Below the pieces are notes generated by a model. The model did not search any database and was not told the origin of the DNA. It saw nothing but the letters and a program-made list of their open reading frames with translations. From Paenibacillus bouchesdurhonensis (GTDB lineage: Bacteria; Bacillota; Bacilli; Paenibacillales; Paenibacillaceae): DNA of 64,000 bases. Shown piece by piece: positions 47,385 through 57,750 of this stretch (position 1 is the first letter of the stretch; each line of letters starts with the position of its first letter). A program made the position numbers and the translations under genes. The DNA lies in NCBI RefSeq assembly GCF_900155685.1, contig NZ_LT732548.1, positions 133,898-197,897 of the forward strand, given 5' to 3'.

Positions 47385-47650
47385 GTGATTCAGTAAACAG
47401 CCCAGCCCACTACACGGCTGGCGGAATTGAAACTATAGATTTTATTCAAGCGAAGCTAACCCCTGCAGAGTTCAGTGGGTATTGTCGGGGAAATATCTTA
47501 AAATACCTCAGTCGCCACGGGCTAAAAGCTGCTGGCGTAGAGGATTTGAAAAAGGCAGCTTGGTATTTGGATCGACTGATCCGCCATCTGGAGAAGGAGT
47601 CAGGAGCCCGAGCAATTTTCCACGAACAAGACTTTTATCCGAAGGAGTGA
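47381..47650 (+). CDS. DUF3310 phage protein
   Basis: 89 aa. SPAHYTAGGIETIDFIQAKL, FSGYCRGNILKYLSRHG and DLKKAAWYLDRLI are the DUF3310 signature, found in many phages next to replication genes and described as nucleotide-kinase-like. ATGA overlap with the helicase gene. Confidence 0.88.
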   Translation: MSDSVNSPAHYTAGGIETIDFIQAKLTPAEFSGYCRGNILKYLSRHGLKAAGVEDLKKAAWYLDRLIRHLEKESGARAIFHEQDFYPKE

Positions 47651-47655
47651 GCCGA

Positions 47656-47808
47656 ATGATTAAAAACCGACTACCATACCGGATGCGTTTCAAGGTTTGT
47701 AGAGAATGCTGGAAGCGATATACGCTTAGTTACTTTCCGAGACATAAATGCGAGGTGAAGAAAGATGGATTTCGTGAAAACATACAACGACATCACCAAA
47801 GAGATTGA
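47656..47808 (+). CDS. Small basic Cys/His phage protein
   Basis: 50 aa with CRECW and HKCE, a possible zinc site. AAGGAG 9 nt upstream. Its tail overlaps the next gene by 44 bp. Confidence 0.5.
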   Translation: MIKNRLPYRMRFKVCRECWKRYTLSYFPRHKCEVKKDGFRENIQRHHQRD

Positions 47809-48187
47809 AATCCTAGAGTTACGACTAATTGATCTAGAGGACGAGCTTAAAGAGGCGAGGAAGCTTTGCTTCTCTGGACGCTTACCTTCCGATCCGCTTC
47901 CCGTTCACGTTCCGTTGGATAAAGCCCTGGAGTATTATGACGCCGTTGTTCAGCGGATCGGGGAGACGTCGAATAGATTAGCAGCCAAGAAGTTGATTCG
48001 GCAGAAAATTGAGGACAGCATCCGGGATTTTCAGGGGATTGAATATCAGGTAGCGTATATGCGGGATGTTGAGGGTTTGCCCTTATACAAGATAGCTGAC
48101 AAGCTAGGATATTCATACGACTGGATCCGAAAGGTTAGCAGTCGAATCAAGGCACAAAGAAGGCACAAAAAGATTGATTTTTCCTGA
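47765..48187 (+). CDS. ArpU-like phage late-gene regulator (sigma-like HTH)
   Basis: 140 aa. An N-terminal coiled coil (about 8-40) is followed by a region-4-like helix-turn-helix at the C-terminus (LPLYKIADKLGYSYDWIRKV, then RRHKK). The family switches on packaging and virion genes in Gram-positive phages. It is the last gene before the tRNAs and the late region, which fits that role. AGGTGAAGAAAG precedes the ATG. Confidence 0.8.
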   Translation: MDFVKTYNDITKEIEILELRLIDLEDELKEARKLCFSGRLPSDPLPVHVPLDKALEYYDAVVQRIGETSNRLAAKKLIRQKIEDSIRDFQGIEYQVAYMRDVEGLPLYKIADKLGYSYDWIRKVSSRIKAQRRHKKIDFS

Positions 48188-48210
48188 TATAGTAATAGCA
48201 TAGCAAATTG

Positions 48211-48250
48211 TATAGACGGGATTTCTACTAGGTCGGAGATTCCGTCTATA
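48211..48250. repeat. Long hairpin between the late regulator and the tRNA genes
   Basis: TATAGACGGGATTTCT pairs with GGAGATTCCGTCTATA over 16 positions (three G-T pairs) with an 8-nt loop. No T tract follows. A second weaker pair, CGCAGC/GCTGCG, lies at 48262-48299. It may be a late-promoter control site or an RNA-processing signal. Confidence 0.6.
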
Positions 48251-48308
48251 CGCATTAAAGGCGCAGCTGGCAATGGTTTCTGACTGTTCGGCGGCTGCGT
48301 CTTACATC

Positions 48309-48392
48309 ATACCTGTAGCTTAGTGGGAAAGCGTGAAGGCGGCCGCAATAACAGACTTCATGTCCGGGGTTCGATTCCCCGCAGGTGTGCCA
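48309..48392 (+). tRNA. tRNA-like gene with a 17-nt anticodon loop, CCA encoded
   Basis: 84 nt. Acceptor ATACCTG/CAGGTGT (7 bp), D arm GCTT/AAGC, T arm CGGGG-TTCGATT-CCCCG and a 4-nt variable region are all canonical, and G73 plus CCA is encoded. The anticodon stem TGAAG/CTTCA is perfect, but its loop is 17 nt (48339-48355) rather than 7 and contains the palindrome GCGGCCGC. No anticodon can be assigned. Either an unusual tRNA, one carrying a small insertion, or a decayed gene. Confidence 0.7.
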
Positions 48393-48395
48393 TAA

Positions 48396-48469
48396 CCGGA
48401 TGTAGTGTAGCCAGGTAGCACGCTTGCCTTGGGAGCAAGTAGTCGCAGGTTCGAATCCTGCCGTTCGGA
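48396..48469 (+). tRNA. tRNA-Pro (TGG)
   Basis: 74 nt. Acceptor CCGGATG/CGTTCGG (7 bp, two G-T), D arm GTGT/GCAC, anticodon arm CTTGC-CTTGGGA-GCAAG with anticodon TGG, variable region TAGTC, T arm GCAGG-TTCGAAT-CCTGC. No CCA is encoded. It starts 3 bp after the preceding tRNA-like gene, so both are likely co-transcribed. Confidence 0.9.
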
Positions 48470-48501
48470 TTAATTCATCATTTTTAGATCCCCCTTGATT
48501 A

Positions 48502-48528
48502 GCCGCTTCCTTGTGAGGCGGCATTTTT
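48502..48528 (+). terminator. Intrinsic terminator after the tRNA genes
   Basis: 7-bp stem GCCGCTT/AGGCGGC with a 7-nt loop, then ATTTTT. Confidence 0.75.
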
Positions 48529-48548
48529 ATTTCGAAAGGATGATACAT

Positions 48549-48761
48549 ATGAACTTCGGCCAAGCATTTGAAGAAGTGAAAGCAGGCAAGGGGATGAGAC
48601 TCCCCCAATGGCAGCCTGATGTTGTAATTCGCGCGCAGTATCCCGACGCACACAGTAAAATGACTGCGCCATACCTCTATGTGGAGAGCCGTTTTGGTCG
48701 AGTCCCTTGGAAAGAAACGATGATTGAGTTATTTGCAGAGAATTGGGAGGTTATCGGATGA
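48549..48761 (+). CDS. Tad2-like (DUF2829) anti-Thoeris protein
   Basis: 70 aa. MNFGQAFEEVKAGKGMRLPQ and VPWKETMIELFAENWEV match the start and end of the DUF2829 family. A phage member, Tad2, blocks the Thoeris defence by sequestering its cyclic ADP-ribose-type signal. The fold match is by sequence pattern; the activity here is inferred. AAAGGA 8 nt before ATG 48549 selects the start over an in-frame ATG 9 nt upstream. Its stop overlaps the next gene (ATGA). Confidence 0.85.
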   Translation: MNFGQAFEEVKAGKGMRLPQWQPDVVIRAQYPDAHSKMTAPYLYVESRFGRVPWKETMIELFAENWEVIG

Positions 48762-48961
48762 ACATGCAAATCGAGAATAACTTTAGCTATCACGCACCGA
48801 AGCCGGGACAACCTGAAATTTATACGGCGATCCGCGAGAAGGCGAAGGAACTGGCCTACTTGATCGACGAGAAGGCACCGAATAGCCGCGAGAAGTCATT
48901 AGCTATGACGAAGCTAGAGGAAGCCGTCATGTGGGCTAATGCGGCAGTAGCGAGAAACTGA
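48758..48961 (+). CDS. Acb2/Tad1-hairpin-domain-like protein (cyclic nucleotide sponge)
   Basis: 67 aa. FSYHAPKPGQPEIYTAIREK, AYLIDEKAPNSREKSLA and EEAVMWANAAVARN follow the pattern of small phage proteins grouped with Acb2. Acb2 proteins form helical hexamers that bind cyclic di- and trinucleotides and block CBASS; a Tad1 relative blocks Thoeris. The start overlaps the Tad2-like gene stop, with GGGAGG upstream, so the pair is co-translated. Activity is inferred from family resemblance. Confidence 0.75.
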   Translation: MNMQIENNFSYHAPKPGQPEIYTAIREKAKELAYLIDEKAPNSREKSLAMTKLEEAVMWANAAVARN

Positions 48962-48982
48962 GCACCTTAACGGGTGCTTTTT
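48961..48982 (+). terminator. Terminator after the anti-defence pair
   Basis: AGCACC/GGTGCT 6-bp stem with a 6-nt loop, then TTTT. It starts at the Acb2-like stop codon. Confidence 0.7.
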
Positions 48983-48991
48983 AATTTGCAC

Positions 48992-49023
48992 AAAAAAAAA
49001 GACTCTCAGCTACGAGAGTCTTT
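48992..49023 (-). terminator. Terminator of the reverse HTH gene
   Basis: Perfect 10-bp stem AAAGACTCTC/GAGAGTCTTT with a 6-nt loop. On the minus strand it is followed by a run of nine U residues. The gene's stop codon lies inside the stem. Confidence 0.88.
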
Positions 49024-49440
49024 GTAATCTTCAATTTGTTTATAAGTCCATATTGGGCCCGAGGCGAGACGTTGTAAAGGATCGGGGAACTTGCCGCGTT
49101 TCATGTATTCGGAGACTTGCTGCTTCTGCCAACCGAGCATTTCAGCGGCTTCGGAGAGCCCGACAAGTGGAGGGATAACTAAACCAATCTTGTCTTTGTA
49201 TACTTTACCTTCACTATCGTAAAAGTTTTGCAAGTATCCGATAAGTTCCAGTGCGAATTTTTCGCTTGCGATATGTCTGGCGCCGTCGATAGTCTCAGCT
49301 ATTTTTACGCCATCGGCAGAGTGATCATCGTCTTTGAAATACATATTATCTCCAAGCTTTACGACAAAAAACTGGTAGGGAGTCTTGCCGTCTGGCAGTA
49401 GCCCTTTTTCTTCTATCACAGTGTATTCGGTTATTTTCAT
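49006..49440 (-). CDS. Reverse-oriented AlpA/MerR-like HTH protein
   Basis: About 144 aa. The C-terminal third is an excisionase/AlpA-type helix-turn-helix (VGLSEAAEMLGWQKQQVSEY, then GKFPDPLQRL and GPIWTYKQIEDY). The N-terminal part has a beta-rich domain (YTVIEEKGLLPDGKTPYQFF). GGAGG 8 nt before the ATG at 49440 selects this start. It is the only leftward gene right of the early control region and has its own promoter, terminator and direct-repeat operators, so it is probably expressed in the lysogen. Confidence 0.8.
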   Translation of the reverse strand: MKITEYTVIEEKGLLPDGKTPYQFFVVKLGDNMYFKDDDHSADGVKIAETIDGARHIASEKFALELIGYLQNFYDSEGKVYKDKIGLVIPPLVGLSEAAEMLGWQKQQVSEYMKRGKFPDPLQRLASGPIWTYKQIEDYKDSRS

Positions 49441-49461
49441 TTTCATTACCTCCGTCATCGT

Positions 49462-49510
49462 TTGTTTTACTTTGTAAATCAAATATAGCATCGTTGTTTT
49501 ACTTTGTCAA
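49462..49510 (-). promoter_or_regulatory. Promoter and direct-repeat operators of the reverse HTH gene
   Basis: On the minus strand, TTGACA (49505-49510), 17-bp spacer, TATATT (49482-49487): near-perfect sigma-A elements. The 14-bp sequence ACAAAGTAAAACAA (minus strand) occurs at 49494-49507, overlapping the -35, and again at 49462-49475, just downstream of the start point. The copies are 32 bp apart, three helical turns, which suggests cooperative repressor binding. Confidence 0.8.
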
Positions 49511-49541
49511 ACATTTGTTTTTAGTAAGGAGCTGAGGACGT

Positions 49542-49745
49542 GTGAAGATTGTTCGTGCTAGAGACGTTCAAGGATGGAACATGTCCGTGAGCATGCTTTT
49601 CGGAACAAGTCCAAAGTTTGATATTAAATGCGGGAAATGCGGGCGCTGGTTTTCTCGACGGTTCGATCTGGACGACTTTCCGAACCCGGTCACAAGGTGC
49701 CCGCGATGCAAAACACACAATGAGATCCCGCTTAAATATTCCTGA
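49542..49745 (+). CDS. Small zinc-ribbon phage protein
   Basis: 67 aa with KCGKCGRWFSRRFDLDD and TRCPRCKTHNEI, two CxxC knuckles resembling Com-type zinc proteins. The start is GTG with AAGGAG upstream. It begins the rightward late region before the terminase genes. Confidence 0.75.
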   Translation: MKIVRARDVQGWNMSVSMLFGTSPKFDIKCGKCGRWFSRRFDLDDFPNPVTRCPRCKTHNEIPLKYS

Positions 49746-49760
49746 AAGGAGCTGAGTGCG

Positions 49761-50453
49761 ATGGCATTGACGGCCAAGCAGAAATTATTCGTTAAAGAGT
49801 ACCTGGTTGATCTCAATGCCACGCAGGCAGCGATCAGGGCAAAATATAGCGCAAAAACGGCCGAGCAGCAAGCAAGTCGACTGTTAAGTAATGTTAAGGT
49901 ACAGGAAGCGATCCAGAAAGCGATGAACAAACGGGCTGAAAAAGTGGAGATCAGTGCCGAGCAAGTGCTCCAGCGCTGGATCGATATCGCCTTTGCGGAT
50001 CCGAACGAGATCATTCATTTCCGCCGAGTCTGTTGCCGCTATTGCTTCGGCATCGAACATCAGTATCAATGGATCGATGAGACCGAATACGAAGCAGCTG
50101 TTAAGATCGCAAAGGACGAAGCGGAAGCAGGAAAGGGTAAGAAGAAAAAGGCAGTTCAGCTTCCATCTGATCGGGGCGGATATGGATTCGATCCGCTGAT
50201 AAGGCCGCATCCGAAGTGTCCGAATTGCCACGGAGAGGGTCATGGGCAGCTGCACATTAACGATACCCGGGAACTGAGTCCGAAGGCTAAGGCGCTTTAT
50301 GCTGGAGCCAAGTCAACCGCAGCAGGGCTGGAGATCAAAATGCATGACCAGGACAAAGCACTGGATAACATCGCTCGTCACTTAGGCATGTTCAAGGATG
50401 AATCCAAGATCGATCTCACTATCCGCAATAAGTTAGAGGACTTTTTCAAATGA
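49761..50453 (+). CDS. Terminase small subunit
   Basis: 230 aa. The N-terminal Terminase_2 helix-turn-helix (TAKQKLFVKEYLVDLNATQA, then KTAEQQASRLL) recognises phage DNA. A Cys-rich central insertion has CCRYC and CPNC (possible zinc site). The C-terminus is helical. It overlaps the large subunit gene by ATGA. Confidence 0.9.
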   Translation: MALTAKQKLFVKEYLVDLNATQAAIRAKYSAKTAEQQASRLLSNVKVQEAIQKAMNKRAEKVEISAEQVLQRWIDIAFADPNEIIHFRRVCCRYCFGIEHQYQWIDETEYEAAVKIAKDEAEAGKGKKKKAVQLPSDRGGYGFDPLIRPHPKCPNCHGEGHGQLHINDTRELSPKAKALYAGAKSTAAGLEIKMHDQDKALDNIARHLGMFKDESKIDLTIRNKLEDFFK

Positions 50454-56713: not shown

Positions 56714-57673
56714 ATGCAAACAGCACTTCGTTGGGATCCACGAGTACTGGAGCCGGTATTTAAGGAACTGTACTCGCTTGCGATGAAAGATAAAAAGGAT
56801 TTTATTCCGCTGCTTTATAACGTGACAACATCCGGTAAATCAATGGAATCCTATGATGGGGTCGGCGGCGAGGGCTTGATGGAAGAATGGAGCCGTTCGA
56901 ACAACCAAGTCTATTACGAGGATGTTGACGAGCTCTGGCAGAAAGTCATCAAGAACCGTAAGTTCTCTGATGGCCGAATCATCGAGCGCGATTTTATCGA
57001 CGACCTGAAATTGACCGAGATTAAACGGCGTATTGCTTCCTTGGCCGACTCTGTCTATAAGACGCAGCAGCTGCAAGCCGTTGAGTTTTTGGTGAATGCC
57101 TTTTCTGATACGGGCCCGAACTGGCGCGGCCGGGTCGAGAAATACGCGGGGCCTGATGGCAAGCCGCTTTGTGCGGCTGATCATCCATACAGTCCTACGA
57201 ACAGCACAGACGTTCAGTCTAACCTGGGAGACAAGCCGCTGACCATTGATTCCTGGGATGAGACGGCAGTGGCCATGCAGGAGTGGGTTGACGACAAGGG
57301 TAATACAATGGCCGTCATTCCGGATACGTTAATCGTGGCTCCGTACAATGCTCGCGCAGCGTTTAAGATTGCCGGATTGCCTGACTCCGAACTTCCGAAG
57401 TATGAGCCTGGTAGCGGAAACTTTGATGCGAACATGTACATGGGAAATATCAAGGTTATCGTTAATCCGTTCATCAGCCCAAAGAGTCGCAAAAACTGGT
57501 TTGCTGTCGACTCCGCCCGTAAGGATCAATTAAACATTTGGCAGTGGAGACGGAAGGTAGAGAACGGAACAATGACTGATTTCGATACGGAAGCAACCAA
57601 GCATAAGGCAATCGGACGCTGGGGCTATGGCTTCACCAACTATTCGTTCATTTATGGCCATAACGTTCAATAG
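56714..57673 (+). CDS. Major capsid (coat) protein
   Basis: 319 aa. MQTALRWDPRVLEPVFKELY, EWVDDKGNTMAVIPDTLIVA and KRWGYG-like RWGYGFTNYSFIYGHN at the end resemble HK97-fold coat proteins of the Mu gpT/phage head-subunit kind. Position after scaffold and decoration genes and before connectors supports it. AAGGAGG upstream. Confidence 0.83.
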   Translation: MQTALRWDPRVLEPVFKELYSLAMKDKKDFIPLLYNVTTSGKSMESYDGVGGEGLMEEWSRSNNQVYYEDVDELWQKVIKNRKFSDGRIIERDFIDDLKLTEIKRRIASLADSVYKTQQLQAVEFLVNAFSDTGPNWRGRVEKYAGPDGKPLCAADHPYSPTNSTDVQSNLGDKPLTIDSWDETAVAMQEWVDDKGNTMAVIPDTLIVAPYNARAAFKIAGLPDSELPKYEPGSGNFDANMYMGNIKVIVNPFISPKSRKNWFAVDSARKDQLNIWQWRRKVENGTMTDFDTEATKHKAIGRWGYGFTNYSFIYGHNVQ

Positions 57674-57678
57674 GGGGT

Positions 57679-57708
57679 AGGGGGCTGCGGCTCCCTTTCC
57701 TTGTTTTA
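57679..57708 (+). terminator. Possible weak terminator after the coat gene
   Basis: AGGGGGC/GCTCCCT 7-bp stem (one G-T) with a 4-nt loop, then TTCCTTGTTTT. Likely attenuates read-through into connector genes. Confidence 0.45.
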
Positions 57709-57750
57709 AGCATTCAAGATTTGAATTTTTAAAAGAAGGAAGGTGGAGTG

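Follow-up and report, generated by a model that had tools for sequence, protein, structure and literature searches.

A Tad2-type and an Acb2-type gene overlap in a Paenibacillus prophage and likely form a counter-defence cassette

We asked if two small, overlapping genes in a prophage of Paenibacillus bouchesdurhonensis act together against bacterial immune signalling, or if they are merely neighbours among the cargo of the phage. The genes lie in a stretch of 64,000 nucleotides (hereafter the window, whose numbering is used throughout) from the host's 5.8 Mb genome (contig NZ_LT732548.1, here C7; C7:133898-197897). Gene A (48549..48761, + strand), first in the pair, encodes a short Tad2-like protein of 70 residues, and gene B (48758..48961, + strand) encodes an Acb2-type protein of 67 residues; both families are known as sponges for bacterial alarm signals. 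As the original prediction had stated, the two frames are joined by an ATGA start-stop overlap (48758..48761, + strand; read from the sequence) and tRNA genes adjoin them (48309-48392 and 48396-48469); the overlap also supports its suggestion that the pair is co-translated. A Shine-Dalgarno-like GGGAGG lies within gene A, 5' of the gene B start. We consider it likely that A and B constitute a translationally coupled counter-defence cassette of two complementary sponges, housed in a prophage cargo slot. The observations behind this reading are the gene structure, the families of both proteins, the fold of A, the conservation of binding residues in B, purifying selection, linkage with three sponge families and the swapping of partners.

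The two proteins and their predicted ligands

The families named in the original prediction, DUF2829/Tad2 for the first gene and Acb2/Tad1-hairpin for the second, were both recovered by profile search. The A protein has the Tad2 fold. Its residues 1-69 matched positions 1-73 of PF11195 with 48.5 bits (E 1.3e-12, curated Pfam cut-off 25). The B protein matched PF24729 with 88.8 bits (E 2.6e-25, curated Pfam cut-off 27) and, in a profile comparison, PDB entry 9ptq, "Acb2 homolog 43" (E 1.1e-7). Neither gene had a match in NCBIfam or PADLOC. Helices in B span residues 3-8, 19-39 and 44-66, a short N-terminal helix followed by two long ones. In T4 Acb2, Y8 and T68 are required for binding, by the mutants described in the accessible text of PMC12657230; Y11 and T51 of B align with these residues. 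The loss of ligand-pocket residues that would have spoken against the original prediction is not seen in B. The median ratio of nonsynonymous to synonymous change per site (pN/pS) is 0.17 in the A family (666 pairs; median pS 0.83, pN 0.15) and 0.16 in the B family (190 pairs), in both cases with synonymous sites near saturation. By this sequence measure, both families look to be under purifying selection. Separately, we noticed that Paenibacillus larvae phage records (e.g. KT361655, MG727702) annotate Acb2-type proteins as "phosphomannomutase", most likely a misannotation.

Gene A stands outside the ordinary Tad2 proteins. An alignment of A with 20 of the 21 Tad2 sites detected across 295 genomes from the host's family sets it apart together with a single congeneric copy (G159): both have 70 residues and lack GWNGKG as well as WLASQTDM. 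A scan of viral contigs returned 113 relatives of this short Tad2, and across 38 aligned rows identity averaged 85% per column and 23 columns were invariant; the ordinary Tad2s aligned here are far less uniform. Excluded from the analysis were L146, with a stop codon within the stretch, L163, in which a deletion removes the motif by which short Tad2 was labelled, and, from the Tad2 seed set, L087. None of the 38 rows contained GWNGKG or WLASQTDM, and all contained WKET or a close form. In a tree of 47 rows, the 18 short copies formed one clade (support 100/100) on a long branch, joined (98/94) to ordinary Tad2s that show the "HSKMT...TTGLQTDN" pattern, the kind found in the host's sister prophage; the inner forks of this tree are unsure because there are few columns. 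Among 398 genomes of the host's class, the short Tad2 profile detected the window's own copy alone at E 1e-15. Judged by its sequence, in which loop motifs like GWNGKG and WLASQTDM are missing, A is a separate subfamily, not an ordinary Tad2.

What this subfamily might bind is suggested by where it is short. In Tad2, the dinucleotide pocket sits within residues inserted between beta strands 2 and 5 (as given in the accessible text of PMC12043709). The corresponding segment of A is shorter than in three solved Tad2 proteins: than that of SptTad2 by 24 residues, of HgmTad2 by 31 and of Myroides Tad2 by 14, in alignments whose second halves score weakly. On these weak alignments, A lacks the insertion that marks the Tad2 proteins of HgmTad2/SptTad2 type, which bind cyclic dinucleotides (CDNs). 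The original prediction had the pair covering both Thoeris and the cyclic oligonucleotide-based antiphage signalling system (CBASS). That coverage cannot be read from A, given its shorter CDN segment and two missing loop motifs, and in general the ligand of a Tad2 protein cannot be read from family membership. Because A is shorter at the dinucleotide pocket and carries a different, nearly invariant set of loops, it most likely takes a separate, single signal. Its near-invariance suggests a conserved signal, one that may lie beyond the reach of the known Tad2s.

We propose the following mechanism. The cassette, carried in the slot that separates the late regulator and tRNA genes from the packaging module, would be expressed past the hairpin upstream of it, and translational coupling would supply A and B together. 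B would bind cyclic di- and trinucleotides, thereby keeping CBASS effectors off, and possibly also nucleases of type III CRISPR (clustered regularly interspaced short palindromic repeats) systems that use cyclic triadenylate (cA3). A would be a compact Tad2-fold sponge for one conserved nucleotide-type signal outside the reach of Acb2, probably a signal of ADP-ribose type made by TIR enzymes. N7-cyclic ADP-ribose (N7-cADPR) is a Thoeris signal. As a Tad2 sponge, A would be a tetramer that binds gcADPR, His-ADPR or another signal, and as an Acb2, B would be a hexamer. Ligand binding by the two proteins would take place during infection or induction. The host genome had no match to Thoeris TIR (PF08937, ThsB_TIR) or CBASS SMODS (PF18144), a search that did not extend to other TIR or CD-NTase families. 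This says little, because the counter-defence of a prophage targets the next host.

Alternatively, A could be an inhibitor of type II CRISPR-Cas resembling AcrIIA7, rather than a signal sponge. We regard this as highly improbable. The titles of entries 8kbj and 8kbk show that the AcrIIA7 (HgmTad2) protein itself holds cADPR and cyclic di-GMP (cGG), and where short Tad2 has a recognised partner, that partner is a nucleotide sponge, in neighbourhoods that were not scanned for other Acr families.

Sponge arrays in related phages

We labelled loci with local profiles for short Tad2 (S), ordinary Tad2 (C), Acb2, Acb4, a protein that we call X, and DUF6275, taking in each case the best 80 relatives, out of 113 for short Tad2, 207 for Acb2, 410 for DUF6275 and 119 for Acb4. 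The 79 short-Tad2 loci collapsed into 59 clusters (90% identity over 500 bases). Several loci are not independent of the host or of each other: L088 and L168 (100% each) come from the prophage of the window itself and L169 (99%) from its sister, under IMG/VR 2791355223, while L017 and L216 represent a single prophage (100% across 6201 bases).

The immediate partner of short Tad2 was an ordinary Tad2 in nine clusters, Acb2 in five (one being the window's own prophage), Acb4 in three, DUF6275 in three and X in one. The remaining 38 had no such partner, and 35 of these have at least 500 bases on either side. With one locus taken per cluster, 18 of 24 Acb2, Acb4 or ordinary Tad2 genes lay within 110 bp of a short Tad2, against 1.19 expected; none of 10,000 random placements reached 18, the control being random positions and not other kinds of cargo gene. 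Four of the six genes farther away are the terminal Acb4 of an S>C>Acb4 array, which leaves two that are truly distant. Adjacent labelled array genes overlapped start to stop at 45 of 55 distinct junctions.

These counts bear on the possibility that A and B are accidental neighbours, two unconnected small cargo genes that do not work together. Both families do mostly occur apart, and the fact that most A-type and B-type copies examined stand without the other weighs against an obligate partnership. Yet overlapping Tad2>Acb2 pairs recur with differing Tad2 types, in the window, the sister prophage, the L089 group, L117, L216 and L236 (the last partly related to L216). Together with the adjacency test, this leaves hardly any credence for mere coincidence. 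Beside these pairs we note an Acb2 copy with an in-frame TGA, located 3' of an ordinary Tad2 (G126:C1:4389239-4389409).

A second possibility is that A serves as a helper subunit in mixed assemblies and alters the capture range of its partner. Coupling to ordinary Tad2 is strict (nine of nine distinct S>C junctions are start-stop coupled), and Tad2 is a tetramer with pockets between protomers, according to the accessible text of PMC12043709. However, the other partners, Acb2 and Acb4, have unrelated folds, and 38 of the 59 clusters lack such a partner nearby. We therefore find a helper role very unlikely. A third possibility, that short Tad2 keeps its fold but is no sponge and acts late as an accessory in phage structure or assembly, draws on the many copies that sit among head and packaging genes; we consider it unlikely. 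As a separate observation, one locus (L132:1323-2867) has, near its short Tad2 gene, a MuF-type head protein fused at its C terminus to a toxin-like domain, CdiA_C (PF18451).

Members of such arrays are also added and exchanged. PF13876, named "Phage_gp49_66" in Pfam, is the Acb4 family in the accessible text of PMC11722364, and the Acb4 label rests on these two, as a PDB search with the PF13876 partner gave no Acb4 entry. Acb4 is start-stop coupled 3' of Tad2 in the arrangements S>Acb4, C>Acb4, S>C>Acb4 and C>C>C>Acb4, and C>X>Acb4 also occurs. When the survey started from Acb4, 13 of 48 clusters had Tad2 genes in the locus, 33 had Acb4 alone and two were unlabelled. Three loci (L369, L371, L374; about 1215-2255) have three ordinary Tad2 paralogues and then Acb4, all overlapping. 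Between otherwise related phages, L131 carries Acb4 where L103 carries X (flanks 76-93% identical), and Acb4 behind S>C is present or absent between L112 and L128 (80-94%) and between L107 and L118 (76-77%).

The clearest swap is in the host itself. A sister prophage lies around 3.60 Mb of C7; from the zinc-ribbon gene onward, aligned blocks of the two have 88.7-90.9% DNA identity, and the block containing Acb2 has 94.1%. Positions 48513-48732 of the window have no counterpart in the sister (E 1e-5), which instead encodes an ordinary 80-residue Tad2 with an ATGA overlap with its Acb2. The sister has an additional ordinary Tad2 (90 residues, C7:3592226-3591954) directly after the major head gene, and none is present at the matching 57673-57748 of the window. 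Sister prophages on one chromosome with near-identical Acb2 and different Tad2 offer a ready natural comparison. As these relatives show, phages stack and exchange sponge genes like building blocks.

Protein X (phrog_3915) is start-stop coupled to short Tad2 or placed between Tad2 and Acb4 (L105:3213-3428 and seven more S>X loci; also L363, L364 and L367), and it belongs to no Pfam family. From this placement we regard X as a candidate new counter-defence family. We do not claim homology of X and Acb4, for which a profile comparison gave a probability of 7.7%. DUF6275 adjoins short Tad2 in the three clusters above and in one named phage (L250); its standing as a cassette member is weakened by the 38 of 44 clusters without Tad2, Acb2, Acb4 or X in the locus, and by gaps at four of its five distinct junctions with Tad2 genes. 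A bolder view is that short Tad2 is, in function, a sponge family of its own, whose single fixed ligand is unlike those of known Tad2s, and that it is a recurrent first gene of mix-and-match operons, X being a further undiscovered family that sponges or destroys signals. We offer this tentatively, as a possibility somewhat short of an even chance.

The cargo slot and its RNA element

The cassette lies in the following order of features: a late transcription regulator-like gene (47765..48187, + strand; phrog_10157, phrog_36), a tandem two-hairpin RNA element of 104 nt (48205..48308, + strand), the two tRNA-type genes (+ strand), a hairpin, A, B, a hairpin, a gene on the opposite strand that weakly matches excisionase families (49006-49440, - strand), a small zinc-ribbon-like gene and the terminases. 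The terminase small subunit (49761..50453, + strand; PF03592, 137.5 bits) opens the packaging module 3' of the slot, and the large subunit after it was assigned by position and by its counterpart in the sister prophage rather than through a family search. A megablast of 8.5 kb against named phages gave no match.

Terminators had been predicted on both sides of the pair. Our hairpin scan located terminator-like hairpins 5' of the cassette (48502..48522, + strand) and 3' of B, overlapping its stop codon (48960..48979, + strand), as well as one on the opposite strand (49023..48998, - strand). The scan counted five in 2.7 kb against 2.8 +/- 1.6 in shuffled sequence, so the number by itself is not clearly above chance. 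The stem-loop of the 5' hairpin is identical, letter for letter, in a related prophage of G167; the sister has, by eye, a different hairpin at the matching position. A search of the + strand of 47500-50200 gave no sigma-70-like promoter, and the gap from the 5' hairpin to gene A is a mere 26 bases, so transcription of the cassette most likely starts upstream.

The RNA element is strongly folded, with a minimum free energy of -51.7 kcal/mol (z -8.86; none of 200 shuffles reached so low a value), and an Rfam scan of 47500-50200 returned the two tRNAs and nothing else. In helix 1 of the sister's copy, four of four substitutions keep pairing, each on one side only, which is consistent with an RNA structure but not proof of one. 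We consider the element a candidate antitermination or regulatory RNA that would govern read-through; it may resemble known antitermination RNAs with two hairpins, for example HK022 put. A motif like hairpin 2 (CTGGCA/TA ... GCGG) immediately precedes Acb2 in both L115 (E 0.0012) and L001 (E 0.048). The first tRNA-type gene (48309-48392, called Ala ggc) has ordinary acceptor and T arms and an enlarged, 17-nt anticodon loop, whose letters GCGGCCGCAATAACAGA are shared by G136 (L433) and G167 (L434). The Ala(ggc) call may be wrong, and a decoy or processed tRNA is possible; the second gene (48396-48469) was called Pro tgg.

Does this position attract anti-defence genes, as the original prediction proposed? 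The RNA element had matches in five genomes among the 295 of the family, each from the host's genus: the host itself, with two copies, and four others, strongly in G136 (E 1.9e-22) and G167 (5.6e-13) and weakly in G104 (2.6e-5) and G258 (7.1e-4). A tRNA adjoins it in three of the four by ARAGORN, and G258 has a tRNA-like sequence by eye. In all four genomes, a hairpin, varying cargo and terminase genes (at least one over the Pfam cut-off in each) follow 3' of the RNA and tRNA. The cargo is DUF3892 in G104 and G258; in G136 and G167 it is a two-gene cargo (L433:3113-4599, - strand, and L434:2414-3804, + strand, respectively) whose longer genes have no Pfam or PADLOC match. Counter-defence genes were recognised in two of six slot occupants, both the host's. 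Variation of the slot next to the tRNAs was thus borne out, and because the cargo of the other genomes matched no anti-defence family, these data support a cargo hotspot rather than specifically an anti-defence one. The terminase families behind it differ between prophages (PF03592 in the window; PF22530, PF04466 and PF10668/PF06056 in L433-L436); the slot thus persists when the packaging module is replaced.

Comparison with known systems

The Tad2, Acb2 and Acb4 families are already known, as is the presence of two such genes in one phage. A search of titles and abstract openings, with most subscription papers and bioRxiv outside it, found no description of Tad2-Acb2 or Tad2-Acb4 operons, of overlapping swappable sponge arrays or of a short Tad2 branch. 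If sponges are kept in start-stop-coupled, swappable arrays, the partner position of an array would be a route to new sponges, and the arrays would also record which immune signals phages meet together.

A differs from the Tad2 proteins of PF11195 (SPO1, Myroides, HgmTad2/AcrIIA7, SptTad2) in its 70 residues, its shorter middle segment and its own clade. B resembles Acb2 (T4 Vs.4, PDB 7uq2; Acb2, PDB 8h2j) in its PF24729 match, its helix layout and its retention of Y8/T68, although T4 Vs.4 has 88 residues, with a 20-residue insertion, where B has 67. B also shares the motif SRE(K)...T..EEA.MW with the C-terminal part of Tad1. Acb4 (PF13876) is likewise a small sponge that is start-stop coupled 3' of Tad2, in relatives and not in the window; it has no structural homology to Acb2, Tad1 or Tad2, as far as the accessible text of PMC11722364 states. 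Single phages are described as acting on several signals, SPO1 with Tad2 and Acb4 and T4 with Acb1 and Acb2 (accessible text of PMC11722364 and PMC12657230). The gene pairs of SPO1 and T4 differ from that of the window, where the sponge genes overlap in one cassette and its members are swappable.
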